This document shows positions 5,167 through 43,021 of a stretch of DNA of 64,000 nucleotides, piece by piece; positions within the stretch are counted from its first letter, which is position 1; every line of letters begins with the position of its first letter. The notes beneath the pieces are model-generated. The model did not search any database. It worked only from the letters and a program-made list of their open reading frames with translations, and was not told where the DNA came from. The translations under genes and the position numbers were made by a program. The stretch is from positions 5,070,501-5,134,500 of the forward strand of contig NC_007778.1 in NCBI RefSeq assembly GCF_000013365.1, written 5' to 3'. The stretch is from Rhodopseudomonas palustris HaA2 (GTDB lineage Bacteria; Pseudomonadota; Alphaproteobacteria; Rhizobiales; Xanthobacteraceae).

Positions 5167-6192
5167 ATGGCGCTGGCCCGCGGACGGCGGCAGGAGACAG
5201 GGTTCAACTACTGGCCGGGATTCGTCGACGCGCTGTCGACGCTGATCCTCGGCATCGTGTTTCTGCTGTCGGTGTTTCTGGTGGTGCAATTCTTCCTGTC
5301 GCAGGAGGTCACCGGCAAGGACAAGGCGCTGCAGGAGCTCAACGCCCGGATCGCGCAGCTCAACGATCTGTTGTCGCTGGAGAAGCTCGGCAAACTTGAT
5401 ATCGAGGAGCAGCTGTCGCAAGTCCGCGCCGGCCTGTCCGCGGCGCAGAGCGAGCGCGACCGCGTCAAGGGACTGTATGACGGCCTCGCCGGCGCCGGCA
5501 GCGACGCCGCCGGCCGCGCCGGCGAACTCGGCAAGGCGCTGGAATCGGAGAAGCAGCTTTCGGCCCGGGCGCTGGCGCAGGTCGAGGTGCTGAACCAGCA
5601 GATCTCGGCGCTGCGCCGCCAGCTCGCGGCGCTGGAAGAGGCGCTGGAGGCCACCGAAAGGCGCGACAAGGAATCGCAGGGCAGGATCGCCGATCTCGGC
5701 CAGCGGCTGAATCTGGCGCTGGCGCAGCGGGTGCAGGAGCTGTCGCGCTATCGCTCGGAATTCTTCGGCCGGCTGCGCGCGATCCTTGGCGACCGCCCCG
5801 ACATCCGCATCGTCGGCGACCGCTTCGTGTTCCAGTCGGAAGTGTTCTTCGACACCGGACAGGCGCTGCTGCTGCCCGAAGGCCGCGCCGAACTCGACAA
5901 GCTCGCCGCCGCGCTGACCGAACTCGACAAGAAGATCCCGTCGGAGATCCCCTGGGTGCTGCGCGTCGACGGCCACACCGACCGGCGGCCGATCACCGGC
6001 GTGTTCAAATCGAACTGGGAGCTGTCGAGCGCGCGCGCGATCTCGGTGGTGCAGTATCTGGTGTCGCTCGGCGTCCCGGCGCAGCGCCTGGTCGCCGCCG
6101 GCTTCGCCGAATTCCAGCCGCTCGACACCGCCAACACAGATGAGGCCTACCGCCGCAACCGCCGCATCGAGCTGAAGCTGACGGAGCGGTGA
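5167..6192 (+). CDS. MotB/OmpA-family peptidoglycan-binding protein
   Basis: A 341-residue protein with one N-terminal membrane helix (residues about 18-45) that carries an acidic residue in FVDALSTL, as in MotB-type proton channels, then a long coiled coil (about 50-190), then a C-terminal OmpA/MotB peptidoglycan-binding domain (about 215-341) with the DTGQALLLPEGRAEL, GHTDRRP and RNRRIELKL signatures. ATG at 5167 with GGAG 8 bases upstream. Together with the MotA-like protein upstream it should form an inner-membrane complex anchored to the cell wall; what the complex drives cannot be told from sequence. Confidence 0.87.
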   Translation: MALARGRRQETGFNYWPGFVDALSTLILGIVFLLSVFLVVQFFLSQEVTGKDKALQELNARIAQLNDLLSLEKLGKLDIEEQLSQVRAGLSAAQSERDRVKGLYDGLAGAGSDAAGRAGELGKALESEKQLSARALAQVEVLNQQISALRRQLAALEEALEATERRDKESQGRIADLGQRLNLALAQRVQELSRYRSEFFGRLRAILGDRPDIRIVGDRFVFQSEVFFDTGQALLLPEGRAELDKLAAALTELDKKIPSEIPWVLRVDGHTDRRPITGVFKSNWELSSARAISVVQYLVSLGVPAQRLVAAGFAEFQPLDTANTDEAYRRNRRIELKLTER

Positions 6193-11851: not shown

Positions 11852-14728
11852 TTGCGTCTGACCCGATGCCTTGCGCTTCTGGCGCTCGGCTTGATGATGA
11901 TTGCGGCCGCCCCGCAGGCACATGCGCTCGACGCCGTCAGCGTCCGCAGCGACGCGCCGGCGATCGACCTCACTGGCGTGCTCGACCACCAGCGCAGCGA
12001 CACCGACCGCATCCAGATCTCCACCGCGCCGGGCAGCGACGGCATCGTCCGCCGCGTCGAGGTCCGCGCCCGCGAGGGCGGCCAGAACTGGGTGGTGTTC
12101 GCGCTCGCCAACAACACCGACGATCAGCTCGACCGCCTGATCGTCGCGCCGCATTACCGGATGGTGTCGTCCGGCCTGTTCTGGCCCGACCTCGGCCTGT
12201 CGCGGATCGCGACCATCACACCCTCGACCGGCGACCGCCCCGAACGTCAGGACTCCGGCACCGCCGACATCTTCCGCGTCACGCTCGACCCCGGTTCGGT
12301 GATCACCTTCGTCGCCGAATTGCGCACCGACAAGCTGCCGCAGCTGTATCTATGGGAACCCGAGGCCTACAAGGACAAGGTCAACTCGTTCACGCTGTAC
12401 CATGGCATCGTGATCGGCATCTCCGGCCTGCTGGCGCTGGTGCTGACGATCCTGTTCGTGGTCAAGGGCAGCATCATGTTCCCCGCCGCCGCGGCGCTGG
12501 CGTGGGCGGTGCTGGTCTATATCGGCATCGACTTCGGGTTCTGGAGCAAGGTGTTCGACATGTCGGCGGGCGCCGAGCGGGTGTGGCGCGCCTCCGGCGA
12601 AGCGATCCTCGCCGCGACGCTGCTGGTGTTCCTGTTCGCCTATCTCAATCTCAGTCGCTGGCACGTGCGCTACTCGCACATCACGCTGGGCTGGCTCGCC
12701 TTCCTGGGCTCGCTGGTGGGGCTGGCGCTGTTCGACCCCGCGGTCGCGTCCGGCATCGCGCGGATGTCGCTGGTGCTGATCGCCTTCGCCGGTTTCGGGC
12801 TGGTGGTGTATCTGTCGACCCACGGCTTCGATCGCGCGGTGCTGCTGATCCCGACCTGGTTCCTGCTGGTGATCTGGGTGATCGCGTCCGGCATGGCAGT
12901 CGCGGGCTCGGTCACCAACGACATCGTCGGCCCGGCGCTGCTCGGCGGCCTGGTGCTGATCGTGATGCTGATCGGCTTCACCGTGATGCAGCACGCCTTC
13001 GCTGGCTCGGGCGCCACCGGCGGCGTGGTGTCGGACGTCGAACGCCGGGCGCTGGCGCTGATCGGCTCCGGCGACCTCATCTGGGACTGGGACGTCTCCG
13101 CCGACAAGGTGTTCACCAGTCCGGAGACCGAGGCGCTGCTGGGCCTGAAGCGCGGCGCGCTGGAAGGCTCGGCGGCGAGCTGGCTGGAAGTGCTGCATCC
13201 GCTCGATCAGGACCGTTTTCGCGCCGCGCTCGACTCGGTGCTCGACCAGCGCCGCGGCCGGCTGACCCAGCATTTCCGGCTGCGCACGCCGGACGGGCAC
13301 TTCATGTGGTTCGCCCTGAAGGCGCGGCCGGTGGTCGGCGCCGACGGCGAAGTCACCCGCGTGGTCGGCACGCTGACCGACGTCACCGAGGCCAAGAACG
13401 CCGAAGAACGGATGCTGCACGATTCGGTGCACGACAATCTCACCGGCCTGCCGAACCGCAAGCTGTTCATGGACCGGCTCGGCGCGGTGGCGAATTTCGC
13501 CAAGACGATGCCGACGCTGCGGCCGACCCTGATGGTGATCGACCTCGACCGCTTCAAGCAGGTCAATGATTCCGTCGGCATCGCGGTCGGCGATTCCATC
13601 TTGCTGACTCTGGCGCGCCGTCTCACCCGCATCCTCAAGCCGCAGGACACGCTGGCGCGGATCGCCGGCGACCAGTTCGGCCTGATCCTGCTGTCGGAGC
13701 AGGACCCCGCCAAGATCACCGCCTTCGCCGAGACCATCCGCAAGACCATCAAGGCGCCGATCGCTTTCAACGACCGCGAGATCTTCCTCACCGCCTCGAT
13801 CGGGCTGGCCTTGAGCGACCCGCAGACCCAGCTCTCGGACGAGATCATCAAGGACGCCGAGCTGGCGATGTATCACTCCAAGCGGATCGGCGGCGACCGC
13901 ATCGACGTCTACAAGCCGGCGATGCGCGCACGCAAATCCGATCGCCTGACGCTGGAATCCGAACTCCGCCGCGCCATCGAGCGGCAGGAGATCACCATCC
14001 TGTATCAGCCGATCGTGCGGCTGGAGGATCGCTCGGTCGCCGGCTTCGAGGCGCTGGCGCGCTGGGACCATCCCAAGCTCGGGCGGATGGCGCCCTCCGA
14101 ATTCATCGCGATCGCCGAGGAGATCGGACTGATCGTCGAGCTCGGGCTGTTCGTGATGGACCAGACCGCCAAGCAGCTCGCGATCTGGCAGCGCGCGATG
14201 CGCGCGCGCGAGCCGATCTTCGCCAGCGTCAACGTGTCGTCGCGGCAATTGCTGCGCCACGACCTGCTCCACGACATCCGCACCGTGCTGTCGCGCTCCT
14301 CGATCGCCCGCGGCACGCTGAAGCTCGAACTCACCGAATCGCTGGTGATGGAAAATCCGGAGCACGCCGCCCAGATGCTGACGCGGATTCGCGAACTCGG
14401 CACCGGCCTGTCGCTCGACGATTTCGGCACCGGCCATTCGTCGCTGGCCTATCTGCAGCGCTTCCCGTTCGACACCATCAAGATCGATCAGTCGTTCGTC
14501 CGCACCACCAGCCGCGGCACCCGCCCGGTGATCCTGAAATCGATCATCGCGCTGGCGCACGATCTCGGCATGGACGTGGTGGCGGAAGGCGCCGAGACGG
14601 ATTCGGACGCGGTCGAATTGTATCAGCTCGGCTGCGAATACGCCCAGGGCTTCGCCTTCGGCGAGCCGATGGACGCCGACGCCGCGATGCGGCTGCTGAC
14701 GGAAGAACGTCTGGAAGCCGCGAGCTGA
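11852..14728 (+). CDS. Membrane PAS-GGDEF-EAL protein, likely c-di-GMP phosphodiesterase
   Basis: 958 residues starting at TTG with a GGAG site upstream. Order: signal peptide (cut near HALDA), a periplasmic 7TM-DISM-like N-domain (about 25-165), seven membrane helices (about 180-385), a PAS/PAC domain (about 390-515), GGDEF (about 525-690) and EAL (about 700-950). The GGDEF signature is degenerate (AGDQF), so cyclase activity is unlikely and it may only bind GTP. The EAL domain keeps EAL, ELTES, DDFGTG and IKID, so c-di-GMP hydrolysis is expected. A ligand in the periplasm may control it. The accessory block begins directly after this gene. Confidence 0.9.
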   Translation: MRLTRCLALLALGLMMIAAAPQAHALDAVSVRSDAPAIDLTGVLDHQRSDTDRIQISTAPGSDGIVRRVEVRAREGGQNWVVFALANNTDDQLDRLIVAPHYRMVSSGLFWPDLGLSRIATITPSTGDRPERQDSGTADIFRVTLDPGSVITFVAELRTDKLPQLYLWEPEAYKDKVNSFTLYHGIVIGISGLLALVLTILFVVKGSIMFPAAAALAWAVLVYIGIDFGFWSKVFDMSAGAERVWRASGEAILAATLLVFLFAYLNLSRWHVRYSHITLGWLAFLGSLVGLALFDPAVASGIARMSLVLIAFAGFGLVVYLSTHGFDRAVLLIPTWFLLVIWVIASGMAVAGSVTNDIVGPALLGGLVLIVMLIGFTVMQHAFAGSGATGGVVSDVERRALALIGSGDLIWDWDVSADKVFTSPETEALLGLKRGALEGSAASWLEVLHPLDQDRFRAALDSVLDQRRGRLTQHFRLRTPDGHFMWFALKARPVVGADGEVTRVVGTLTDVTEAKNAEERMLHDSVHDNLTGLPNRKLFMDRLGAVANFAKTMPTLRPTLMVIDLDRFKQVNDSVGIAVGDSILLTLARRLTRILKPQDTLARIAGDQFGLILLSEQDPAKITAFAETIRKTIKAPIAFNDREIFLTASIGLALSDPQTQLSDEIIKDAELAMYHSKRIGGDRIDVYKPAMRARKSDRLTLESELRRAIERQEITILYQPIVRLEDRSVAGFEALARWDHPKLGRMAPSEFIAIAEEIGLIVELGLFVMDQTAKQLAIWQRAMRAREPIFASVNVSSRQLLRHDLLHDIRTVLSRSSIARGTLKLELTESLVMENPEHAAQMLTRIRELGTGLSLDDFGTGHSSLAYLQRFPFDTIKIDQSFVRTTSRGTRPVILKSIIALAHDLGMDVVAEGAETDSDAVELYQLGCEYAQGFAFGEPMDADAAMRLLTEERLEAAS

Positions 14729-14772
14729 GGATCATGGACAATTTCCCCCCAATGCCACTAAGCATTCCTCAC

Positions 14773-15402
14773 TTAATATTTCGTTTTGCCAGTGGCTGTC
14801 TTCCTAAATACAAGCACACTGACATCCGGCCGGACTGAGAATGGACTACTTTGTAACACCAACGGAACACTTCCAAAGCAAGCTCGAATCTCCCCTTCCG
14901 AAATTCCACGTTGGAATGTCCCCCTCTTCGGTGAAGAAAGATAGCCATCACGGAACCTCACCCACCCTTTGCGATGGGCCTCCTGCTCTATCGCCCTCGG
15001 CGACCGTGCCGCTACCACCAGGAGACCGCCATCTCGCGCATGAGCGAAAAGCTTCGCACACAGCTGGCGGCGCTCCATATCGTCAGCGATCACATTCAAA
15101 ACGAAAAGGCAAGAAACGAGGTCATACTCGCCAACAGGTGCTTCTTCGAAGCCAAATTGAGGATGAGGATCATAACCTGCAGCTACTAAACCATGAGCTC
15201 TGTAAAAGGCTACATCCTGACCTACTCCACAGCCAAAATCGAGAATCGTGCGTACATTAAACTGCTGCAAAGTACCTGAAGACAACAGCTCCCGCGCCAC
15301 CGGTGAAGCCTCTTTTCGCTGCATAGCAGTCCGCGCCGGCTGAAGCGGCCTTCGATAGTCAATCGGCGCGGCGTCAAATAGGTCGAACTGCTTCCGATTC
15401 AT
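14773..15402 (-). CDS. Class I SAM methyltransferase of the accessory module
   Basis: 209 residues. An N-terminal RTAMQRKEASPVARELL segment precedes AdoMet motif I LDFGCGVGQD (54-63) and GYDPH; this arrangement resembles the methyltransferases annotated next to DNA phosphorothioation genes, but no dnd gene is present here. It overlaps the EEP gene by ATGA and is the last gene of a LysR-EEP-methyltransferase operon. GC content and codon use are lower than in the neighbouring genes. Substrate unknown: nucleic acid or a nucleotide is an inference from its partners. Confidence 0.75.
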   Translation of the reverse strand: MNRKQFDLFDAAPIDYRRPLQPARTAMQRKEASPVARELLSSGTLQQFNVRTILDFGCGVGQDVAFYRAHGLVAAGYDPHPQFGFEEAPVGEYDLVSCLFVLNVIADDMERRQLCAKLFAHARDGGLLVVAARSPRAIEQEAHRKGWVRFRDGYLSSPKRGTFQRGISEGEIRACFGSVPLVLQSSPFSVRPDVSVLVFRKTATGKTKY

Positions 15403-16103
15403 TTTCTCGTCTCCAAGGACAACCGCATTCCGCTGTGGTCAGTGAATGCCCACGAGCCCGTCCTCGCCTCGTGAATATAACTCGCTTGCGCTGACGATCG
15501 TAGCGCCTCTGAGCAAAGAATAAAATCACATCGGAATTGGACCAACCCCCCGCGTAGATGTCGCTCAATTGTGAACTCTTGCGGTGGGCTTTCACCCAAG
15601 ACGTCAAAGAGGCCATGACGCTTCATAAGCTCTCGGAGTACGCGACGTTCACTATCAAGTGTCCAAGAACTAAAGGCCCCGTTGAACAGTCCATCACGAT
15701 CATACGGAGCAAGATTGAAATCTCCACCTATGACGATATTGTTATTGATTGATTTGTCCAGAAGCCTAAGCATGCACTCGAGCTGCTGGCTTCGTTTGGC
15801 GCCCTGGTATGCTGAAAGGTGCACGTTCAACACCGTAAGCGCATTGAGGGTTAAGCCAAGAACAAATGGCTCATCACAGAATACTGCAACATTGCCGATG
15901 GCCGGCCCCACAAATGCAGACAAATCGCGCGACACGTAAATTGGCACAGTATGAGCAAGACGATCAATCTCAAGTATACGTCGAGCAAAAGTCTCCTGCA
16001 ACAACACCAAGTCCGCGGAGGGCGACGAGACCAATCGTTCCAGTGATCGAATTGCGGCTTTGTTCTGCCCACGCTTACGCAGATTTTGCCAAACAAAGTT
16101 CAT
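15399..16103 (-). CDS. Endonuclease/exonuclease/phosphatase (EEP) family protein
   Basis: 234 residues with the catalytic motifs of the EEP fold: LQET (Glu37), VNVHL (about 95), GGDFN (127-130), RCDFIL (191-196) and TDHS (221-224). All metal and catalytic residues seem present, so an active phosphoesterase on DNA, RNA or a phospho-metabolite is expected. No signal peptide, so cytoplasmic. It overlaps the regulator upstream by ATGA and the methyltransferase downstream by ATGA, showing tight translational coupling. Substrate not predictable from sequence alone. Confidence 0.8.
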   Translation of the reverse strand: MNFVWQNLRKRGQNKAAIRSLERLVSSPSADLVLLQETFARRILEIDRLAHTVPIYVSRDLSAFVGPAIGNVAVFCDEPFVLGLTLNALTVLNVHLSAYQGAKRSQQLECMLRLLDKSINNNIVIGGDFNLAPYDRDGLFNGAFSSWTLDSERRVLRELMKRHGLFDVLGESPPQEFTIERHLRGGLVQFRCDFILCSEALRSSAQASYIHEARTGSWAFTDHSGMRLSLETRK

Positions 16104-17200
16104 TGAACCGCGTCAAGCTGAACATTGTCAAGCCAGCTATCTATTACCGCAATGCACTGCCTAACCGGGTGTTCTTTTGACAACGACGCGACGAACTCTT
16201 CGTTGGTCATAAACGTTACCATACTCTTGTGTTGCACATCGGCGAGGCTAAAGTAGCGTGTCAATGGCGCATCGCCATTCGCTGAATCGTAAAACCGCTG
16301 GAAGTGGCCATCGTACACTCCTTTCAAAACAAACATTCCAGCATCATGCAACCTAAGGCGCATAATCTCGAAAGCGAAATGAACGTCATCGCACCATTCC
16401 ACAACATTTATTTGCTGCTGAATTTCGGCAACACTGGAAACACCGAGATTCTCGCGGACGAAATCGAAGACTACTCCAGAAGTTGGAAGTATGAGCGGGA
16501 TTCTCTCGGCAAATATATCTTTGATCGTAAGCTGGTCGTTATTAGTTGTGTAGTTTAGCATAAATCCAAACGTATCTTCTCTTATTGTTCTGACTTTGAG
16601 CCCGACTTCCTGCACAGAAGACTCACCAATTTTTACTGTTCGGCCCCCGAATGCACAGTCGACCTCGCGTTTGAGGACGCTTTCTTCTAGCTTTCCCGTA
16701 CGCAAGTGAACAAGACGGCTTTCGAAGCTCTGGCGCTCACTATGCAATCGGGGAACAAGCCCTTTGACTAGATTCAGCAAGAACGTCGTGAGCCCAACGT
16801 GGACAACGAAGCGGCCGTCAGATGTTACCTTTTCCGTAAACTCTTTGAGAGCCAGCAAGCTGCTTTCCGCGAGCTCAAATGCAGCTCGTCCAGCTGGTGT
16901 GAGGGGGTTTCTCCCCCTTCCGGCCTTGCGGTCGAATAGCTCAGACTTTAGGATTGTGCTGGTGTGATTTCGCAAGCTTTCCAATGATTTCACAACGCTA
17001 GACTGGTGCTTGGGCTGGAGCTGCTTCGTCACCTGAGAGATTGATCCGGCAGAGCCCAGTACGTATAGGAGCCGGAGTTGCTCAAGCGTTATTTTGAACA
17101 GCTCGGCATTACGCTCGTCTCTCACAAAGGTATCCAGGGAGGTTACCTGACTACGTTGCGCGGAACGGCCCGAACCGACTCCAGGATTCGCCTTTGCCAT
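16100..17200 (-). CDS. LysR-type transcriptional regulator of the accessory module
   Basis: 366 residues from ATG at 17200 (AGGACGG site upstream); a longer frame reaches 17302 but covers the intergenic operator region. The N-terminal winged helix (about 30-105) reads FKITLEQLRLLYVLGSAGSISQ and ends in RNPLTPAGRAAFE, as in LysR proteins; the rest fits a periplasmic-binding-protein-like effector domain, but with little similarity to well-known LysR members. It is the first gene of its operon and divergent from the HIT operon, the standard LysR layout, so it probably controls both. Confidence 0.75.
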   Translation of the reverse strand: MAKANPGVGSGRSAQRSQVTSLDTFVRDERNAELFKITLEQLRLLYVLGSAGSISQVTKQLQPKHQSSVVKSLESLRNHTSTILKSELFDRKAGRGRNPLTPAGRAAFELAESSLLALKEFTEKVTSDGRFVVHVGLTTFLLNLVKGLVPRLHSERQSFESRLVHLRTGKLEESVLKREVDCAFGGRTVKIGESSVQEVGLKVRTIREDTFGFMLNYTTNNDQLTIKDIFAERIPLILPTSGVVFDFVRENLGVSSVAEIQQQINVVEWCDDVHFAFEIMRLRLHDAGMFVLKGVYDGHFQRFYDSANGDAPLTRYFSLADVQHKSMVTFMTNEEFVASLSKEHPVRQCIAVIDSWLDNVQLDAVQ

Positions 17201-17215
17201 TGGAACCGTCCTAAT

Positions 17216-17260
17216 CGATTGGTTGTGTTTATAACATTTTCGACCAATTATCGTCAATCG
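17216..17260. promoter_or_regulatory. Inverted-repeat region between the two divergent operons
   Basis: ATTGGT at 17218 and ACCAAT at 17243 form an inverted repeat with a 19-base spacer; CGATTG at 17216 is also mirrored by CAATCG at 17255. The region is AT-rich and contains TTTATAACATTTT. It is the likely binding site of the LysR-type protein and holds both promoters; no -35/-10 pair stands out enough to annotate. Confidence 0.4.
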
Positions 17261-17348
17261 GTGCCTCAAAGACAGATAATCCAACCTTTTCACTAAGATC
17301 ATTCAGCGGCAGATTTCGCTTGTCACAACGACAGAGCGAGATCTGGTC

Positions 17349-17993
17349 ATGTGCGATTTTTGCGAGGAGTTCAGACGTCCGCTGACTGAGAAATCGAGGA
17401 TTTCTTGCGAGCGAGATGGATTTGTAGTGATGCCCACCATCGGCTGCTTCGTTGACGGGTACAGCCTCGTTTTGCCAAGAAAGCATGCCGTATCGTATGC
17501 ATCGCTCCCTCATGGCGAGAGGCAGGCGGGCTTGGCTTTAGCCGAAGATGCGCGTGAGCGACTCGCTCAATTGTACGGCGATTTTATCATTGCAGAGCAT
17601 GGCGCCGCCGATAGTTGCGATCTTGGCGCAGGTTGTTGCGACCATGCCCATCTGCATCTGATCCCAATGGGGAAACGCTGTTCGGCGGTCCGGAATGCTT
17701 TCCTGGAAGCTGGAGCCGAGCCTTCGGTCTGCGGCGACACAGCCGCTTTCGAGAATTATCGCGGCGATCCCTATATAATGCTATCTACCGATCGAGGTCG
17801 TTACGAGTTTTGGCGCGCAACACACAAGTTTGGCCGACAATTTGTTAGGCGCGTATGTGCAGACCTCCTTGGCATTAGCCCCTATTTCAATTGGCGCGAG
17901 CATGCATTTGTCGATCGTATGGTCCGGACAAAGCTCGCATGCAAAATGCTTCTCCCTCAAGATTTGAATAACTTGCGGCGCCGAAGTGCTTAA
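17349..17993 (+). CDS. HIT-superfamily nucleotide hydrolase/transferase-like protein
   Basis: 214 residues. The histidine triad is HAHLHLI (His99, 101, 103) preceded by a Cys-rich loop (DSCDLGAGCC), and the N-terminus has a CDFC pair, recalling the zinc site of some HIT proteins. The core FVVMPTIGCFVDGYSLVLPRKH matches the HIT beta-sheet. HIT enzymes act on alpha-phosphates of nucleotides or nucleotidyl conjugates. The C-terminal 90 residues are an extra part without known similarity. First gene of a three-gene operon; next gene starts 21 bases after its stop. Confidence 0.75.
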   Translation: MCDFCEEFRRPLTEKSRISCERDGFVVMPTIGCFVDGYSLVLPRKHAVSYASLPHGERQAGLALAEDARERLAQLYGDFIIAEHGAADSCDLGAGCCDHAHLHLIPMGKRCSAVRNAFLEAGAEPSVCGDTAAFENYRGDPYIMLSTDRGRYEFWRATHKFGRQFVRRVCADLLGISPYFNWREHAFVDRMVRTKLACKMLLPQDLNNLRRRSA

Positions 17994-18014
17994 AAGCTTG
18001 TCGGGAATGCTCAC

Positions 18015-18899
18015 ATGTTGTTGCAAACTCTGAGTCTCGATCAACTCCTTTGCCAAGCCGAAGCCGACCGTTACCCAAAGTGGAATACGATGTGCTTGCT
18101 TCGCAGCTTGGGCGGAACCACGCTGAATGCAGTGCTCCTAGACCCGGATCAAATCATCCCTTCCACTCCCGGGGTAAGGGGCGTGCTTCAACATTTTTCC
18201 CAAGTAATCGGGAACAGTCGAGTCATGATAAGAACAGACAGGCGGAAGGAAAATGCATCATACGTGCGGGGGGGTAATAGCTATTCCCTCGACCAAGCTG
18301 CTGAATATACGACTCAATTGCTTACAGCCGGAAGGGGCGTTATTGCGCTAGAACCAACGAATCGCTTGACAAATTTGACCACAATCAACTTGGGCGTCGA
18401 TGGCGATGGATGCTGGCGCGCGGAGATCCTTGGCCCCGGTTTTGATGCTAGCGATCTACAGCGAGGCGATACGATCCCAGAATTCGTTTGCTATGGACTA
18501 CCGATGCACCCAGCTCAATATTCCCACATCAGAGCTCACAATTTTTCGATAGAAGTGCTCTCAACAGTCTCAATGGAAGAGAGGACAAAATCGCGACTAC
18601 ATAGCATCTGCCAAAATGTTCTCCCCAGCTTTGGAGCCGACTTCCGAGGATCCGCGGACAGCGAAGCCCGCACTCGCACTTGGCTCCTGCAGCACGGATA
18701 CACGTCGGCTCTTCGCCCAAGGTTCGCTAGCTTCCCGTTCAATGCATTTAAGCGCGTTTTTGAGATGGGACAGTTGGTTTTTCAGTATCGCTTCAATCGG
18801 CAGAAAACGAGTGCCTTCGTGTTGTCATCAGGGATACTCGCAGATTATCGACTCGTATATTGGGACATAGCAGATGCATCGAACAAATGGGCGGCATGA
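18015..18899 (+). CDS. Unrecognised protein of the accessory module
   Basis: 294 residues, no membrane segment or signal peptide. I do not recognise the family. The middle (RVMIRTDRRKE at about 70-80, then VIALEPTNRLTNLTTINLG and AEILGPGFDASDLQRGD) has the spacing of charged and glycine motifs seen in some ATP-grasp enzymes, but the match is too weak to call. It lies between the HIT gene (21-base gap) and the dCTP-deaminase-like gene (9-base gap), so it is part of the same operon and its function should belong with them. Confidence 0.7.
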   Translation: MLLQTLSLDQLLCQAEADRYPKWNTMCLLRSLGGTTLNAVLLDPDQIIPSTPGVRGVLQHFSQVIGNSRVMIRTDRRKENASYVRGGNSYSLDQAAEYTTQLLTAGRGVIALEPTNRLTNLTTINLGVDGDGCWRAEILGPGFDASDLQRGDTIPEFVCYGLPMHPAQYSHIRAHNFSIEVLSTVSMEERTKSRLHSICQNVLPSFGADFRGSADSEARTRTWLLQHGYTSALRPRFASFPFNAFKRVFEMGQLVFQYRFNRQKTSAFVLSSGILADYRLVYWDIADASNKWAA

Positions 18900-18908
18900 G
18901 GAATTCCA

Positions 18909-19421
18909 ATGCGTCTATGTAATTCTGAAAGATTGAACAGACTCATGGAACTCGGTGATCTGCGTATAGTAGCGGATGAAAATCGGATTGTATTTCTTGA
19001 CGATTTTCGAATCGGACTTCGGCTGCAAAACAGACTTCAACAGATAGAGGGACCGATCAATCTATCACAAGATTCTCCTCCAGCAGCAATTGAGCGGCCA
19101 TTGGCTCCAAGGGGAATGATGCGTGGAGAATGGGGACTCGCATTTTCCGTTGAACGTCTTTCGGTCTCTGAGAGACTGATCGGATTTTTGAACACACGTT
19201 CGAAGTATGCCCGTCTTGGCTTGGAAACTATGGGGTCATCATGGCTAATTGCGCCGGGATTTGGATACAATGACCCGACAAGCGTGGTCTTTGAAGTCAT
19301 CGCCCACAACGATCTTACGGGATTTTCGTCCCATATCTCATATGCATACACTATGTTCTTCGAACTCGATCATCCTGTCCGCCTCGATGGTCGAAGCTAT
19401 GGCGGGCGTTTCCCGCACTAG
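18909..19421 (+). CDS. dCTP deaminase/dUTPase-like fold protein
   Basis: 170 residues. NTRSKYARLGLET (96-107) followed by APGFGYNDPTSVVFEVIAHN (115-134) copies the GRSSLARLGL...DPGF...LE layout of dCTP deaminases, with Glu129 at the position of the catalytic glutamate. The N-terminal part is shortened relative to Dcd, and the similarity is distant, so the substrate may differ. Last gene of the HIT operon. In the family, dCTP deaminases supply dUTP or act in phage defence by dNTP depletion; either role here is inference from neighbours. Confidence 0.65.
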   Translation: MRLCNSERLNRLMELGDLRIVADENRIVFLDDFRIGLRLQNRLQQIEGPINLSQDSPPAAIERPLAPRGMMRGEWGLAFSVERLSVSERLIGFLNTRSKYARLGLETMGSSWLIAPGFGYNDPTSVVFEVIAHNDLTGFSSHISYAYTMFFELDHPVRLDGRSYGGRFPH

Positions 19422-19516
19422 CCGGATAGAGTCGAAGACGAGTCATTACGTCAGAGCTGATTCTGAAATGGTGCACCGATTGGTCGCAATATAAATGCAG
19501 TTGCCTCGAAGACACT

Positions 19517-20173
19517 TTAAGCGTGGCCGGCTTCGGCCGACAGCATGCCCGGCTCGATGCCGAGCTTGTGCAGCGCGCGGTCGTATTTCTCTTCGATGTC
19601 GTTGCCGAACACCAAATCCGCGTCGGCGTCGCAATGCAGCCAGCCATTGTCCTGGATCTCGGTCTCGAGCTGGCCCGGCGCCCAGCCGGCATAGCCGAGC
19701 GCCAGGATGGCGTGCTTCGGGCCGGCGCCGCTGGCGATCGCCCGGAGGATGTCGACGGTCGCGGTCAGAGAAATGCCGTCATCGATCGGCAGGGTCGCGT
19801 CCTTGATGAAGAAGTCGCTCGAATGCAGCACGAAGCCGCGGCCGGTTTCCACCGGCCCGCCCCGCAACACCTTCATGGACTCGGCGTGATCCGGCAGCTT
19901 GATCTGCTCGGGCTTCTCGACGATGTCGAGTTGCACCAGCAATTCGGGAAAATCGATGCTGCCGGCGGGGCGATTGACGATGATGCCCATCGCGCCTTCC
20001 GAGGAATGCGCGCAGATGTAGATCACCGACCGCGCGAAGCGCTCGTCTTCCATCACCGGCATCGCGATCAGCAACTGACCGTCGAGATAGTCGCCCTGCT
20101 CGATCGGCCCCGCGTTGCCGGGCTCTCGGCCCGATCTATCGCCTGACTTGGGTCTTTTGGACTTAGTCACCAT
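19517..20173 (-). CDS. yqgE: YqgE/AlgH family protein (UPF0301)
   Basis: 218 residues from ATG at 20173 (GAGGA 6 bases upstream); an alternative ATG further up would add about 15 residues. The motifs [36 protein letters not shown] and [14 protein letters not shown] identify UPF0301. A conserved, cytoplasmic protein of unknown biochemistry, linked in some bacteria to alginate or transcription control. It returns to the GC-rich core codon use, so the edge of the accessory block lies in 19422-19516. Confidence 0.92.
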
Positions 20174-20306
20174 CAGGGATCCTCGCGTTGCATCATTATC
20201 CTGATATTGGGTGCGCATCCTGTCAATCAACCAGTCGCCGCAGGCTGGCCGCCGAATCACGGCCAATTCAGTGGTTCTTCCTGGTCCCAGTGCGTAAATA
20301 CGTCAC

Positions 20307-37769: not shown

Positions 37770-39164
37770 ATGACGGAAACTGGCAACAGGCTAGCGCGGG
37801 TCGCAGGGATGGCCGTACTCGGCGCCGTGCTGCACACGGGCGCCGCGCAGGCGCAGAACCCGTTCGACGTGTTCAATCTGTTCGGCGGCAAGAGCGCCGC
37901 GCCGAATGCGCCGCAGCCCGCCAATGTCGGCCCGCAAAAGCCCGCTTCGCAGCAAGGCAGCAGCGCTGCGCCGCCGTGGAGCGGCGAGGACGGCGGCTCC
38001 GGCCATCCGACGATGACCGCGCAGGCGATCCGCGAGGCCGCCGCCAATTTCGACAATTGCGTCGCCGGCTTCTGGCCGGACGCTCAGCGCCGCGGCATCT
38101 CGCGCGACAGCTTCGCGCGCTTCACCGCGGGGCTGTCGCCCGATCTGCGGCTGATGGACCTGATGGATTCGCAGCCGGAATTCACCAAGGCGATCTGGGA
38201 GTATCTCGACATCCTGGTGAACGACAACAGGATGGCGCGGGGCCGCGAGATCCTGGCGCAATACAAGCCGCAATTCGACGCGGTGGAGCGCGCGTATGGC
38301 GTCGACCGCTACATCATTGCGTCGATCTGGGGCATCGAGTCGAACTACTCGACCCAGATGGGCGACCGCTATGTGCTGAACTCGACCGCGACGCTGGCCT
38401 GCGTCGGCCGCCGCCAAAACTACTTCAAGGACGAATTCCTCACCGCGTTGGAGATCCTGCATCGCGGCGATCTGCGTCCCGAGCAGTTGCGCGGCTCGTG
38501 GGCCGGCGCGTTCGGCCCGACGCAGTTCATGCCGACCGCGTTCAAGCGCTTCGCCGTCGACGCCGACGGCGACGGCCGCCGCGACGTCGTCGACAATCCC
38601 GCCGACCTGATCGCCTCGACCGCCAACAACCTCAAGAAGGACGGCTGGCAGAGCGGCCAGACCTGGGGCTACGAGGTCGCGGTGCCGCGCGGCTTCGACT
38701 ACATGAAGGCCGACCGCAAGCAGATGCTGACGCTGGCGCGATGGGAAGAGCTCGGCGTCCGCCGCCCGAACGGCCAGCCGTTCCCGCGCGGCGGCGAAAA
38801 GGCCTATCTGCTGGCGCCCGCCGGCGCCGAAGGCCCCGGCTTCCTGATGCTGACCAATTTCCGCGTCATCATGAAGTACAACCCCGCCGAAGCCTATGCG
38901 CTGGCGATCGGCCATTTCGCCGACCGCCTGCGCGGCGGTCCGCCCTTCGTCCAGCCCTGGCCGCGCCACGAACGCGTGCTGTCCCGCAGCGAACGCCTCG
39001 AACTGCAACAACTCCTCGCCCAACGCGGCTTCTACCGCGGCACCCCCGACGGCCAATTCGGCAGCCTGACGCGGGAAGGACTCCGGAATTTCCAGGCGTC
39101 CATTGGGGCCCCGGCGGATGGATTTGCCACGGGGGAGATGCTGGAGAGGTTGAGAGGAAGGTAG
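37770..39164 (+). CDS. Lytic murein transglycosylase with peptidoglycan-binding domain
   Basis: 464 residues. Signal peptide at 1-28 (ends AQAQ). The SLT_2 domain (about 85-380) has the catalytic glutamate in SIWGIESNYST and then GSWAGAFGPTQFMPTAFKRFAVDADGDGRRD, as in MltB-type enzymes; the C-terminal peptidoglycan-binding domain (about 400-464) has LQQLLAQRGFYRGTPDGQFGSLTREGLRNFQ. Cleaves glycan strands in the periplasm. The second accessory block begins 70 bases after its stop. Confidence 0.94.
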   Translation: MTETGNRLARVAGMAVLGAVLHTGAAQAQNPFDVFNLFGGKSAAPNAPQPANVGPQKPASQQGSSAAPPWSGEDGGSGHPTMTAQAIREAAANFDNCVAGFWPDAQRRGISRDSFARFTAGLSPDLRLMDLMDSQPEFTKAIWEYLDILVNDNRMARGREILAQYKPQFDAVERAYGVDRYIIASIWGIESNYSTQMGDRYVLNSTATLACVGRRQNYFKDEFLTALEILHRGDLRPEQLRGSWAGAFGPTQFMPTAFKRFAVDADGDGRRDVVDNPADLIASTANNLKKDGWQSGQTWGYEVAVPRGFDYMKADRKQMLTLARWEELGVRRPNGQPFPRGGEKAYLLAPAGAEGPGFLMLTNFRVIMKYNPAEAYALAIGHFADRLRGGPPFVQPWPRHERVLSRSERLELQQLLAQRGFYRGTPDGQFGSLTREGLRNFQASIGAPADGFATGEMLERLRGR

Positions 39165-39235
39165 CATCCCACGCCGCTGGAAAATTCCCACAACCTCTGG
39201 TTATACTGGGCCACGAGATTTTTGAACCACTCCAT

Positions 39236-39254
39236 TTCATAACTCGGAATTATG
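39236..39254. repeat. Left 19-bp inverted repeat of the accessory cassette
   Basis: TTCATAACTCGGAATTATG. The exact inverse complement is at 41935-41953, 2.7 kb away. The motif is itself nearly palindromic (CATAA-N7-TTATG), and its last three bases are the start codon of the pentapeptide gene. Confidence 0.9.
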
Positions 39255-40712
39255 ATCGTGCGCGGAATGCTATTTTCGACTCATGGAGATCAAAACGTTC
39301 ATGTTCCTGGAGACAGGTTCGAGGCTTTAGGCTTGGCGGACCTAAGGCGAATTCGCTTCTCAGGCAGGGCTCAATCAGAACAGACCTTCGCAGGCAACTT
39401 CGTTGAGTGCCTTTTCGACGGCGTCGAGCTTGACAAGATCAACTTCTCGAATTGCGACTGGAAGGATTGTCGAGTTTACAATACCACTTTTATCGACTGC
39501 GAACTGGGCGACGCGTCATTCATTACAAACCTGTTCGATCAGTGCAGCTTTATCCAATGCAAGTTTCCAAATACTGGGATCAGCGATTGCAGCTTCCGCA
39601 ATTGTGTTTTCGAGGACTGTGATCTCAGCAACATCGTAATGAAGTCAAATCGAATCGAGCGATCTCGATTCAGTCGATGCTCAACTTCAAACAGGGTCAT
39701 TGAGAGTAGCTTACTCATTGACACCTCTTGGAGTGGTATGAATTTGGAAGTTGGTCTGATCCTTGGAAACTTCGGTCTCGAGCGGTCTAATGTTCAGGCC
39801 TGCGTACTGTTCGAAAAACAGCCTGACCGCAGCTTGCGGGAAATCACTTGGTCTGACCTCGGTCGTATAGGAGGTCACCGGCCACTGAGCCCCATCGAAA
39901 CATTCCGTTTGGCATTCTTTGAGACCGGGGACGCAGACGGAGATCCCGACGCACTTGAACAGGCAATCAATCCACGAAATTGGACCAGCGAGGCGATTAT
40001 AGAGTCGAGCTTCGGAGCTCTACTGAATTCGTTTGCTCAATTTTTGCTGGCGCTATTCGCCGCGAACCGTTTACCCGTCTATGGTCTACTCCGCTTTCAC
40101 ACTCATAATTTTGCACTACTGGAATGGCTGTCAGGGAAGCCCGAGTTTTCATCCCTTTATCAATCTGCCGCGGGCGTCCATCTTTCTGTGACTCGGGAAG
40201 TTGACGCTTACGCTAGAGCAGTTCAGGAAATAGTCGACGCTCATACAAACTTGCTCCATATTCGACTTGAAGCAGATGGCCCCCTGGATCCTAGCTATTA
40301 CGAATCGCTCTTTCGTGAAGCCGATGGCGGGCAGATTCGGGTAGATTGGGTTCGCCCGCGCAATTCTCCGGTAGAAGTCTCCTTAAATTTCTTCGACTAT
40401 GCAACTTTGCTGTCGATAGTCGCTCTCGTACTCGCAACCCGAACGAAATTTGAACTGTCAAAAATACAGTCAATGGGATGGATAGCGTCTCCACCGACAG
40501 GCGATCGAAATGGAGAAGCCGCCAACGGCAAGCAATTGATCGCATTTCGAACAGGCTTCTCTCTCGATCGTCCCTCTGAGTATGAAATTAATGTGCGAAC
40601 ATTACTGCCGCGCTCCTTCCTTTTAGATCTACACCTTTGCTTGAACATCTCTCTGTTCAAGAGGGTCAGAGGGGTGTTGATTGGATTGCTACTGCCACCT
40701 AAAGACCCTTGA
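39252..40712 (+). CDS. Pentapeptide-repeat protein with unknown C-terminal domain
   Basis: 486 residues. Residues about 46-145 are pentapeptide repeats (segments such as FVECLFDGVEL, FIDCELGDASF, FRNCVFEDCDL) forming a beta-helix. The roughly 340-residue remainder has a hydrophobic segment (about 255-272 and 373-391) and no known domain. The start codon lies inside the 19-bp repeat, so translation may be leaderless; the next ATG is six codons in. Low GC and codon use differ from the flanking genes. Convergent with the aminotransferase, 14-base tail overlap. Function not known. Confidence 0.75.
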   Translation: MIVRGMLFSTHGDQNVHVPGDRFEALGLADLRRIRFSGRAQSEQTFAGNFVECLFDGVELDKINFSNCDWKDCRVYNTTFIDCELGDASFITNLFDQCSFIQCKFPNTGISDCSFRNCVFEDCDLSNIVMKSNRIERSRFSRCSTSNRVIESSLLIDTSWSGMNLEVGLILGNFGLERSNVQACVLFEKQPDRSLREITWSDLGRIGGHRPLSPIETFRLAFFETGDADGDPDALEQAINPRNWTSEAIIESSFGALLNSFAQFLLALFAANRLPVYGLLRFHTHNFALLEWLSGKPEFSSLYQSAAGVHLSVTREVDAYARAVQEIVDAHTNLLHIRLEADGPLDPSYYESLFREADGGQIRVDWVRPRNSPVEVSLNFFDYATLLSIVALVLATRTKFELSKIQSMGWIASPPTGDRNGEAANGKQLIAFRTGFSLDRPSEYEINVRTLLPRSFLLDLHLCLNISLFKRVRGVLIGLLLPPKDP

Positions 40713-41937
40713 TCACCCGAAGGTCTTCGCCGGCCTCCAGGAGGATTGCTCCCGTTTTCTCGATGTTCTCTGTCGGCGTAAAGTAATTGATCCGTACCGC
40801 TTCAAATTCGTCGTCAAATGCAAACCCGATGCTGGACCCCAGCACGATGGGCATTCTTCGGTCTTTGCAGAAACCAAGAAGTGCGCTGCGCTTTCTCGCG
40901 TAAGATCCAACGATGCAACTCAGATCTAGCATTATCGCCCCAATATATCCGTTCTCCAGCGGAGTAGGCTGCATCCAAGAACCAAGAGACATAATTTCCA
41001 ATTTTGCCCGCTCTCGCCGGACTTGTGCGTTCGCGATTCTCAGCATTGTTGGCAATAACATTGGTGTATCAGCAAGCAACGCAACGTTGGATAAGCTGAA
41101 CCGATCTAATGACGCCCCCGCAGCTTCAAGAATTTCTTCGAAGTTAGATCGCCACTGCGGCGGATGCAATATAACGCTCGCGCGGATTCCGTTGAGGCCA
41201 ACTCCCTTTACTATTCCTCTGGTTCGAAAGACAGGGCAGCGCATTTGAGAGAGACCTGATGTGACGCTGGGGAACATTTGCTCGGCAGCTTCATCAATCA
41301 CTAGCATACGCCTTGGCCCCAAGATCTCACCCAAGTGACGTAGCCTTTTGAGGCACTGATTAGAGCCTATCCCAAAGCGCGGCTGAGTAAGCCAAATTGC
41401 ACAATTCGACCTTGAATATAGGATAGATTCAAATCTCTCTAGGTCAGCTTCGAAACGTTCAGCTCTAAAAGTTGGCAACCGGATGAATTCCATCTTAAGT
41501 AGCTCTGCTTGCTGCAGAGTCGCATAATAGGCGGGACTTTCAAACAGAATCGTATCTATCCCCGCTTCTTTAAGGACATATAGAACCGCGAGATTGCAGC
41601 TAGAAACGCTCGGGCAGATCGTGATTTCGTCATGCTCAAGCGGGCGGTTCTCCCACTGACCAACAAGGCGAACAATGGACGATCGGGACTCTCCTAGTGA
41701 AGCTCCTTCATCAACGGCGTAGTGAATTATGTCGCGCGCTTCAGGGAGATGCAGCGAGAATGAAGCCGCTCCTTCACAAGAAGGATTATACCATCCAGAC
41801 GGAAAGGCACTCCAAGCTCGAGATTTTAGTATCTCATCGAAATAGTCTCTGTTGATCTTCTCATAGTCGTCGGGCGAGAAATCGCCGCGAACTAAGCTCG
41901 ATTCTAATGTTCCCATTTGTCTCAATGGCCTTTGCAT
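40699..41937 (-). CDS. PLP-dependent aminotransferase (class I/II fold)
   Basis: 412 residues. The cofactor residues are present: Asp215 in VIDEAAEQ, the Schiff-base Lys244 in GIVKGVGLNG and Arg252 in GIRAS. The N-terminal part has RLVGQWENRPLEHDEITICPSVSSCNLAVLYVL and FESPAYY, typical for the fold-type I aminotransferases. Amino-acid partner unknown. AT-rich and, like the pentapeptide gene, its start codon falls within a 19-bp repeat; an ATG at codon 8 is an alternative start. No biosynthetic neighbours are seen apart from the repeat protein. Confidence 0.8.
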   Translation of the reverse strand: MQRPLRQMGTLESSLVRGDFSPDDYEKINRDYFDEILKSRAWSAFPSGWYNPSCEGAASFSLHLPEARDIIHYAVDEGASLGESRSSIVRLVGQWENRPLEHDEITICPSVSSCNLAVLYVLKEAGIDTILFESPAYYATLQQAELLKMEFIRLPTFRAERFEADLERFESILYSRSNCAIWLTQPRFGIGSNQCLKRLRHLGEILGPRRMLVIDEAAEQMFPSVTSGLSQMRCPVFRTRGIVKGVGLNGIRASVILHPPQWRSNFEEILEAAGASLDRFSLSNVALLADTPMLLPTMLRIANAQVRRERAKLEIMSLGSWMQPTPLENGYIGAIMLDLSCIVGSYARKRSALLGFCKDRRMPIVLGSSIGFAFDDEFEAVRINYFTPTENIEKTGAILLEAGEDLRVIKGL

Positions 41938-41953
41938 AATTCCGAGTTATGAA
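41935..41953. repeat. Right 19-bp inverted repeat of the accessory cassette
   Basis: CATAATTCCGAGTTATGAA, the perfect inverse complement of 39236-39254. On the minus strand it ends in the start codon of the aminotransferase. The tyrosine recombinase gene starts 136 bases further on. Confidence 0.9.
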
Positions 41954-42088
41954 GCAACTCGCCCGCAGAGGCTGCATTCACCCTCTCACTCAACCAATAA
42001 CCTCAATTCCAGAAATGCCTGCATGCTGCGTAGCGCAGAGCCGATTGATACCTCACAAGTTCTCTGCCCCGGTTGGGCGGAGTGCGGA

Positions 42089-43021
42089 ATGACCCTCAGC
42101 AAACCTATCGTGAGCTTTCTCGATCATTGCTCGGTCGAGCGGCAGTTGTCGGACCATACGTTGCAGGCTTACGGCTACGATCTGGCGGATTTTGCCGCGT
42201 GGGTGGGGACGCGGCGGCGGAAGGACAAGGCCTTCTCCGCCGGTGCGCCAATCGAGACCGACCACCTGCGCGCCTATCTCGAGCACATGACCGAGCGGAA
42301 GCTGTCGGCTGCGACGGTGCGGCGGCGGCTCGCTTGCTTGCGGTCGTTTTTCCGCTACCTGGAAGATCGCGGCACGATGCCCAATCCTTTCGATGGCTGG
42401 CGACTGAAGCTGCCGAAGCGCAAGCGGTTGCCGCGGACGCTGTCGCGCGACGAGACCACGCAGCTGCTGAAATCGGCGCGAGCGCCGGGTGCGGCCCGGC
42501 ATGCAGCACCCGAGTCGCCATCGCTGTGCACCGAAATCCGGCTGATGATCGCCACCGGCATCCGGATCGGCGAACTCTGCAAGATCGCCAGCACCGACGT
42601 CTCCAGCGACGGCGCGGCGATCCGGATTCACGGCAAGGGCTCGCGCGACCGGATGGTGTACGTCACCGACAACGGCCTGCGCGCCGAGCTTCGCAAGCTC
42701 GCGGTGCTGCGCCAGCGTACGCTCGGCGGCGATGGGCCGCTGTTCCTCAACCGCAACGGCGACAAGCTGCGGCCGCATTCGTTTCGTGCCAAGCTGCGCA
42801 ATTTTGCGGGGCAAGCCGGCGTCCGCCGCCGCGTCACGCCGCACATGCTTCGCCACACCGCGGCGACGCTGCTGATCGAGAGCGGCGTGGATATCCGGAT
42901 CGTGCAGCGGCTGCTCGGCCATTCGAGCATCGCCACCACCGAGATCTACACCCACGTCTCCGACGAGGCGCTGCGGTCGACGCTGGCGCGCGCGAACATT
43001 CTCGCCGGGCTGGCGCGCTAA
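42089..43021 (+). CDS. XerC/XerD-like tyrosine recombinase
   Basis: 310 residues from ATG at 42089 (GGAG 7 bases before); the frame also opens at 42023. SAM-like N-terminal DNA-binding part (about 7-95), then the catalytic domain with Arg159 (TGIRIGEL), Lys183 (HGKGSRDR), His252/Arg255 (HMLRH), His278 (LGHSS) and nucleophile Tyr287 (IYTHV). All catalytic residues are present. GC-rich like the core genes, so it may be a resident recombinase. Its position directly outside the right 19-bp repeat suggests that it could act on those sites; alternatively it is a chromosome-dimer-type enzyme. Confidence 0.9.
   Translation: MTLSKPIVSFLDHCSVERQLSDHTLQAYGYDLADFAAWVGTRRRKDKAFSAGAPIETDHLRAYLEHMTERKLSAATVRRRLACLRSFFRYLEDRGTMPNPFDGWRLKLPKRKRLPRTLSRDETTQLLKSARAPGAARHAAPESPSLCTEIRLMIATGIRIGELCKIASTDVSSDGAAIRIHGKGSRDRMVYVTDNGLRAELRKLAVLRQRTLGGDGPLFLNRNGDKLRPHSFRAKLRNFAGQAGVRRRVTPHMLRHTAATLLIESGVDIRIVQRLLGHSSIATTEIYTHVSDEALRSTLARANILAGLAR

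Follow-up and report, generated by a model that had tools for sequence, protein, structure and literature searches.

Are six adjacent genes of Rhodopseudomonas palustris HaA2, arranged in two divergent operons, chance neighbors or one functional unit, and if they work together, on what would they act? The genes lie in a stretch of 64,000 nucleotides (contig NC_007778.1 of assembly GCF_000013365.1, positions 5,070,501 to 5,134,500), which we call the window and in whose own numbering its coordinates are given. On the minus strand they encode a methyltransferase, an EEP hydrolase, and a putative LysR-type regulator; on the plus strand, a HIT protein, a protein that had been left without a family and that we predict to be a stand-alone ATP-grasp domain, and a protein resembling dCTP deaminase and dUTPase (DCD-like). 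We report here that the block is a real working unit, the same gene set being present in distant soil bacteria, and we tentatively read it as a LysR-switched, horizontally moved mini-pathway that would make or remodel a nucleotide-type small molecule.

RESULTS

The gene set recurs as one unit

A tblastn search with the putative ATP-grasp protein led to two Streptomyces plasmids (30-33% identity), on which genes annotated as nucleoside triphosphate pyrophosphohydrolase, methyltransferase, and LysR are followed by a divergent run of three hypothetical proteins and a cysteine desulfurase, the three hypothetical proteins being a DCD-like protein, a HIT protein, and a relative of the putative ATP-grasp protein. 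Scanning genome contigs for peptide patterns of the HIT protein added loci in Streptomyces goshikiensis, S. roseus, and Kribbella catacumbae; the same scan with the putative ATP-grasp protein gave 26 pattern matches and no relative. Nine loci with a member of this family were collected in all, eight of them complete (the window, L004, L005, L011, L012, L013, L021, and L022), while the ninth (L020) ends at a contig edge and shows a partial HIT gene, the relative of the putative ATP-grasp protein, and a cysteine desulfurase.

Every complete locus also encodes the methyltransferase, the EEP hydrolase, the DCD-like protein, and the HIT protein (8/8), and LysR is found in seven, so that the search for joint co-occurrence of the six proteins in other genomes came out positive. 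Seven of the eight have a cysteine desulfurase and seven a MazG-like protein; the window has neither, and the actinobacterial loci have both. In all seven actinobacterial loci the EEP hydrolase and the methyltransferase match one and the same open reading frame (ORF), and this fused protein is evidence of coupling that is independent of co-occurrence. Because L004 and L011 are 97-99% identical at the protein level, the eight loci are not independent cases and the evidence amounts to three lineages, namely, the HaA2 genome, Streptomyces, and Kribbella. Recurrence of the gene set in three lineages rules out chance neighbors, and the proposal in the first-pass annotation that the block is one functional unit is borne out. 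In Kribbella, the locus further contains two thymidylate-kinase-like genes, a YqcI/YcgG domain, PEP-utilizing domains, and an MFS gene. None of the listings returned by our literature searches described the gene set. Its enzyme classes are all known; we found no account in that literature of their combination, of the orphan putative ATP-grasp protein, or of the EEP-methyltransferase fusion.

The unit sits on a horizontally acquired island

A DNA search for the stretch and its flanks covered 16 Rhodopseudomonas genomes, HaA2 included, and found the entire stretch in HaA2 only. In each of the 15 others, 46-359 bp separate the two flanks of the island, which match the query at 3 to about 1129 and from about 5911-5919 on. 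The four empty sites that were read place the breakpoints directly after position 14728, the end of a gene at 11852-14728, and at 19518, at the end of a gene at 19517-20266; judging by their sequences, we take these flanking genes to be GGDEF/EAL-type and yqgE-like, respectively. The block is thus a foreign, horizontally acquired insertion that replaced the intergenic region between its flanking genes. All six genes of the block as first outlined remain, while its limits are corrected to 14729-19517 on the basis of the empty sites and a shift in base composition. The GC content per kb is 0.49-0.57 across 15-20 kb of the window versus 0.61-0.74 elsewhere, an AT-rich section at 39-42 kb excepted, which agrees with the earlier remark that the block is richer in AT than its surroundings, and GC at third codon positions is 0.43-0.54 in the block genes versus 0.91 and 0.83 in the two flanking genes.

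The unit is rare. The family of the putative ATP-grasp protein occurs in 1 of 299 Pseudomonadota genomes sampled, HaA2 itself, and in 1 of 396 sampled from the phylum of Kribbella, which is the search center itself; 4 of 297 Streptomycetaceae genomes had a match, the search center among them, giving three new ones. Two of 249 genomes of the order of HaA2 gave a match, the second of which (G213; E 8.2e-4, 27% identity over residues 28-180) is weak, has an internal TAG, is missing from the matches in the phylum sample, and was not counted. With E up to 1e-12 as the threshold, the HIT subfamily turned up in three of the 337 Alphaproteobacteria searched.

A prophage or integrative element was considered and rejected, as no relative appeared in scans of viral contigs, which rely on a few short peptide patterns and are therefore weak negatives, nor, for the HIT protein, in phage records. 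No transposase or integrase was recognized on reading the ORFs of the block, the profile-library searches having covered the six main ORFs only.

The window has a second AT-rich block at 39001-42000 (GC about 0.50). By eye, it contains a pentapeptide-like ORF (39252-40712, plus strand) and a pyridoxal-phosphate-aminotransferase-like ORF (40699-41937, minus strand), and a tyrosine-recombinase-like ORF adjoins it (42023-43021, plus strand).

Layout and divergent regulator

The ORF listing has all six genes where they had first been placed: the methyltransferase (14773-15402), the EEP hydrolase (15399-16103), and LysR (16100-17302) on the minus strand and the HIT (17349-17993), putative ATP-grasp (18015-18899), and DCD-like (18909-19421) genes on the plus strand. 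Two overlaps of 4 nt, each reading ATGA on the minus strand (15399-15402 and 16100-16103), and gaps of 21 and 9 nt between the plus-strand genes likewise agree with the first-pass annotation, in which, besides the limits of the block, the start of LysR and the family assignments needed amending. An AGGA motif lies upstream of the ATG at 17200, and this start of LysR appears more likely than the one at 17302, which would leave a 148-bp divergent promoter/operator region (17201-17348) between the operons. The equivalent gap of Streptomyces holds an inverted repeat of 15-16 nt with a 20-nt spacer in all three regions searched. In the divergent region of the window no inverted repeat reaching 8 nt was found, and promoter and terminator counts in the window are near those of shuffled sequence (5 versus 3.8 and 6 versus 5.3).

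The LysR protein matches HTH_1 (E 0.022, 15.1 of 26.6 bits) and LysR_substrate (E 0.11, 12.3 of 28 bits) of Pfam below their gathering cut-offs, and it is 25% identical to Streptomyces proteins annotated as LysR at the equivalent place (E 2e-9 and 1e-8). The HIT protein falls short of the PF01230 gathering score as well (E 0.0094, 17.0 of 21.5 bits) and has one weak match in a profile search against solved structures; it carries a CxxC motif and the sequence HAHLH, both of them conserved, the HxHxH active-site motif reading HAHLH in the window and the Streptomyces proteins alike, to which it is 38-40% identical (E 1e-26 and 9e-28). For the DCD-like protein, PF22769 (E 2.7e-5, 24.8 of 27 bits) and TIGR02274 (E 3.1e-6, 27 of 92.8 bits) are both below cut-off, as is the match of the Streptomyces counterpart to TIGR02274 (E 6e-21). 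Because their scores lie under the cut-offs, we judge from sequence that these three window proteins are divergent members of their families, the first being a divergent LysR-type regulator.

The methyltransferase and the EEP hydrolase

The methyltransferase is of the class I S-adenosylmethionine type (Pfam Methyltransf_23, E 2.1e-10) and is 45% identical to the C-terminal half of the Streptomyces fusion (E 2e-42). The EEP hydrolase clears the cut-off of PF03372 (E 1.2e-10) and is 38% identical to the N-terminal half (E 1e-30). A profile search of the fusion against solved structures gave nothing.

The methyltransferase also matches TIGR04096 (dnd_rel_methyl; E 2e-21, 76.3 bits, model positions 6-168 of 478) and is 34% identical over 181 residues to an Azospirillum protein annotated as TIGR04096 (E 8e-22). 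A homologous core and the motifs TAxxR, GCGxGxD, and GTFQ are common to both, but the window protein has 209 residues versus about 480 or more and reaches half of the curated score, short of the 150-bit cut-off; it is a single-domain relative of the TIGR04096 core. The earlier statement on the absence of dnd genes has to be qualified: no DndC-, DndD-, or DndE-like gene was found in the block, yet the methyltransferase itself is a relative of a dnd-associated family.

Elsewhere, TIGR04096-annotated methyltransferases lie downstream of large FtsK/SpoIIIE-type genes on plasmids of Azospirillum (L046:3149-10518) and Microvirga (L047:2630-10443), with no dnd gene annotated within the stretches shown.

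A predicted stand-alone ATP-grasp domain

Structure modeling suggests that the previously unassigned protein is a stand-alone ATP-grasp domain of the type found in rifampin phosphotransferase and PPDK: the model has the nucleotide-binding fold of PPDK/RPH-type dikinases, and its closest folds are rifampin phosphotransferase and HpeI. No Pfam family matched its sequence at E up to 1, PF01326 (PPDK_N) included, and a profile search against solved structures likewise gave no match at E up to 1. Rifampin phosphotransferase and HpeHI are dikinases, in one or two parts, with an ATP-grasp domain, but the window lacks the swivelling-histidine and substrate domains, and identity in the alignments is 6-11%.

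HIT relatives in other settings

Six plasmid records contain a relative of the window HIT protein. On Rhizobium leguminosarum pRL1 (L006:606-11329), HIT adjoins a cysteine desulfurase in a cluster of enzymes for nucleotides, sugars, and inositol that looks biosynthetic and whose members include an oxidoreductase, an inositol-phosphate synthase, thymidylate-kinase-like, PRPP-synthetase-like, PfkB, RidA-like, and phosphoribosyltransferase-type proteins, a methyltransferase, and PhyH. This nucleoside-type cluster has HIT and the cysteine desulfurase in common with the unit, but profile searches of the 16.6 kb read detected no relative of EEP, DCD, LysR, or ATP-grasp there. In Lactococcus, the HIT relative adjoins a class-V aminotransferase/desulfurase-like gene and an EamA-like gene (the EamA match being below cut-off). 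On a Caulobacter rhizosphaerae plasmid (L009:6911-10567) and in the alphaproteobacterium G1263 (L055:2458-6430), HIT is grouped with a small membrane-looking protein and a MazG-ending protein of 815 or 826 residues; the two long proteins are 33% identical to each other, and their N-terminal part looks PPDK-like by eye (GTKGA, RSS), with no significant hhalign result. A GNAT-PIN protein comes next after the three-gene set on the Caulobacter plasmid. A Parabacteroides plasmid (L007:3343-8629) has in a row ThyX with a long N-terminal extension, an AAA ATPase, HIT, PRA-PH, and an annotated dihydrofolate reductase. Profile searches found no relative of the putative ATP-grasp protein, EEP hydrolase, LysR, or DCD-like protein in the Rhizobium, Lactococcus, Caulobacter, and Parabacteroides plasmid loci or in G1263.

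DISCUSSION

Joint travel of the genes, the fusion, the divergent layout, and the enzyme classes are shown, and a LysR-controlled pathway on a nucleotide-like substrate is what we infer from them. In such a pathway, the DCD-like enzyme might act on a deoxycytidine- or deoxyuridine-type nucleotide and the ATP-grasp protein might activate or phosphorylate an intermediate, while the HIT protein would move or remove a nucleotidyl or phosphoramidate group. The EEP hydrolase would take off a phosphate or cleave a phosphodiester and pass the product to the methyltransferase, its fused partner in actinobacteria, where the cysteine desulfurase could add sulfur; LysR would sense substrate or product and govern both operons. 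The nucleotide and phosphate theme of the first-pass annotation is strengthened by the predicted ATP-grasp domain and by the MazG-like protein and cysteine desulfurase of the actinobacterial versions. In favor of the pathway we count the recurrence, the fusion, the divergent LysR layout with its conserved inverted repeat in Streptomyces, the HIT-desulfurase contexts of Rhizobium and Lactococcus, and the extra genes of Kribbella, and no nuclease-toxin or pore-type partner was seen in the window block.

Several observations weigh against this interpretation. LysR is missing from the Kribbella locus, and the DCD-like proteins of the window and Streptomyces are only weakly alike (29% over 49 residues, E 4e-4). 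The ATP-grasp assignment stands on a structure model without sequence-level support, hhalign comparisons with the host PPDK (E 0.3) and the two MazG fusion proteins being nonsignificant, and PEP-utilizers, the swivelling-histidine domain, had no Pfam match in the six window proteins and were seen in the Kribbella operon only. The window block offers no product and no gene for export or resistance, and the flanks of the Streptomyces copies show no clear biosynthetic cluster. One of the four Streptomyces loci checked, L021, has an MBL-like gene and an E2-E1-JAB fusion (L021:7316-11394) 120 bp downstream of the cysteine desulfurase, a neighborhood that speaks for a role in defense.

Such a role, in which infection by a phage or plasmid would trigger conversion of deoxynucleoside triphosphates (dNTPs) or production of an altered nucleotide that blocks replication, is in our view unlikely, although the unit is patchy, rare, horizontally moved, and found on plasmids, phosphorothioation islands gave their name to a family that the methyltransferase core resembles, and HIT relatives keep company with the MazG fusion and the GNAT-PIN protein on the Caulobacter plasmid. 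Searched against the 2023 PADLOC library at E up to 1, the six window proteins gave a single match, a weak one of Cas5d to LysR (E 0.022), and the suggestion of defense or dNTP depletion in the first-pass annotation thus finds no support so far. From Streptomyces, six proteins of the unit were searched, MazG excepted, of which the cysteine desulfurase alone gave a match, as DndA/SspA; among 10 flanking proteins of four Streptomyces loci, the MBL-like and E2-E1-JAB proteins of L021 alone did. dCTP deaminases are known as defense genes and share a DCD-like domain with the window protein, but the latter was without a PADLOC match and sits in a multienzyme, LysR-linked unit; control by LysR is unusual for defense systems, and the scans of viral contigs and phage records described above were negative. 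Loci for Dnd and Ssp phosphorothioation are marked by a sulfur transferase of the DndC/SspD type together with DndD/E or SspB/C. The actinobacterial versions do carry a DndA/SspA/NifS-type cysteine desulfurase, but the window has none, and no match to DndC/SspD, DndD/E, or SspB/C and no sulfur-transfer or modification core was found among its six proteins with Pfam, PADLOC, and NCBIfam.

HIT enzymes can cleave phosphoramidates, and a LysR gene with a divergent operon suits substrate induction, so that LysR might instead sense an incoming nucleoside-like or phosphoramidate compound that the enzymes inactivate or use. The folds closest to the ATP-grasp model fit such detoxification, resistance, or catabolism, HpeHI being reported as a two-component dikinase that opens a catabolic pathway (PMC12167813). 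The window nevertheless has no swivelling-histidine partner, and simple inactivation would not be expected to involve a cysteine desulfurase or a DCD-like enzyme, which makes this explanation quite unlikely. Housekeeping of the free-living nucleotide pool, that is, its sanitation under stress, would account for DCD, MazG, and HIT, which are classic pool enzymes, and for the company of the Parabacteroides HIT relative (ThyX, a MazG-like PRA-PH domain protein, and an annotated dihydrofolate reductase); the methyltransferase, ATP-grasp protein, and cysteine desulfurase do not fit, and the block is missing from all 15 other Rhodopseudomonas genomes searched, so we regard it as highly improbable. 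We tentatively prefer a metabolite pathway to defense on two grounds: the partners that keep recurring are enzymes of tailoring and activation controlled by LysR, and related HIT-desulfurase pairs occur in biosynthetic-looking settings.

A more specific and very unlikely form of this pathway would be an undescribed tailoring of free nucleotides, with remodeling of a deoxynucleotide by DCD, activation by the orphan ATP-grasp enzyme, relay by HIT, trimming and methylation by the fused EEP-methyltransferase, and, in actinobacteria, addition of sulfur. Phosphorothioation-linked chemistry, suggested by the DndA-like desulfurase and the dnd-type methyltransferase core, would then operate on mononucleotides rather than on DNA, and the product might be a LysR-sensed signal or an antiviral or interbacterial nucleotide.

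What began as a guess from annotation is now a defined unit open to testing: a six-gene core conserved in two phyla whose members are singly divergent or unannotated. If its product is indeed of nucleotide type, the unit would offer a compact path to a nucleotide with an antimicrobial or signaling role; if it serves defense, it would be a multienzyme nucleotide system not in the 2023 PADLOC library. Either way, the unit supplies a context for the dnd-type methyltransferase core.

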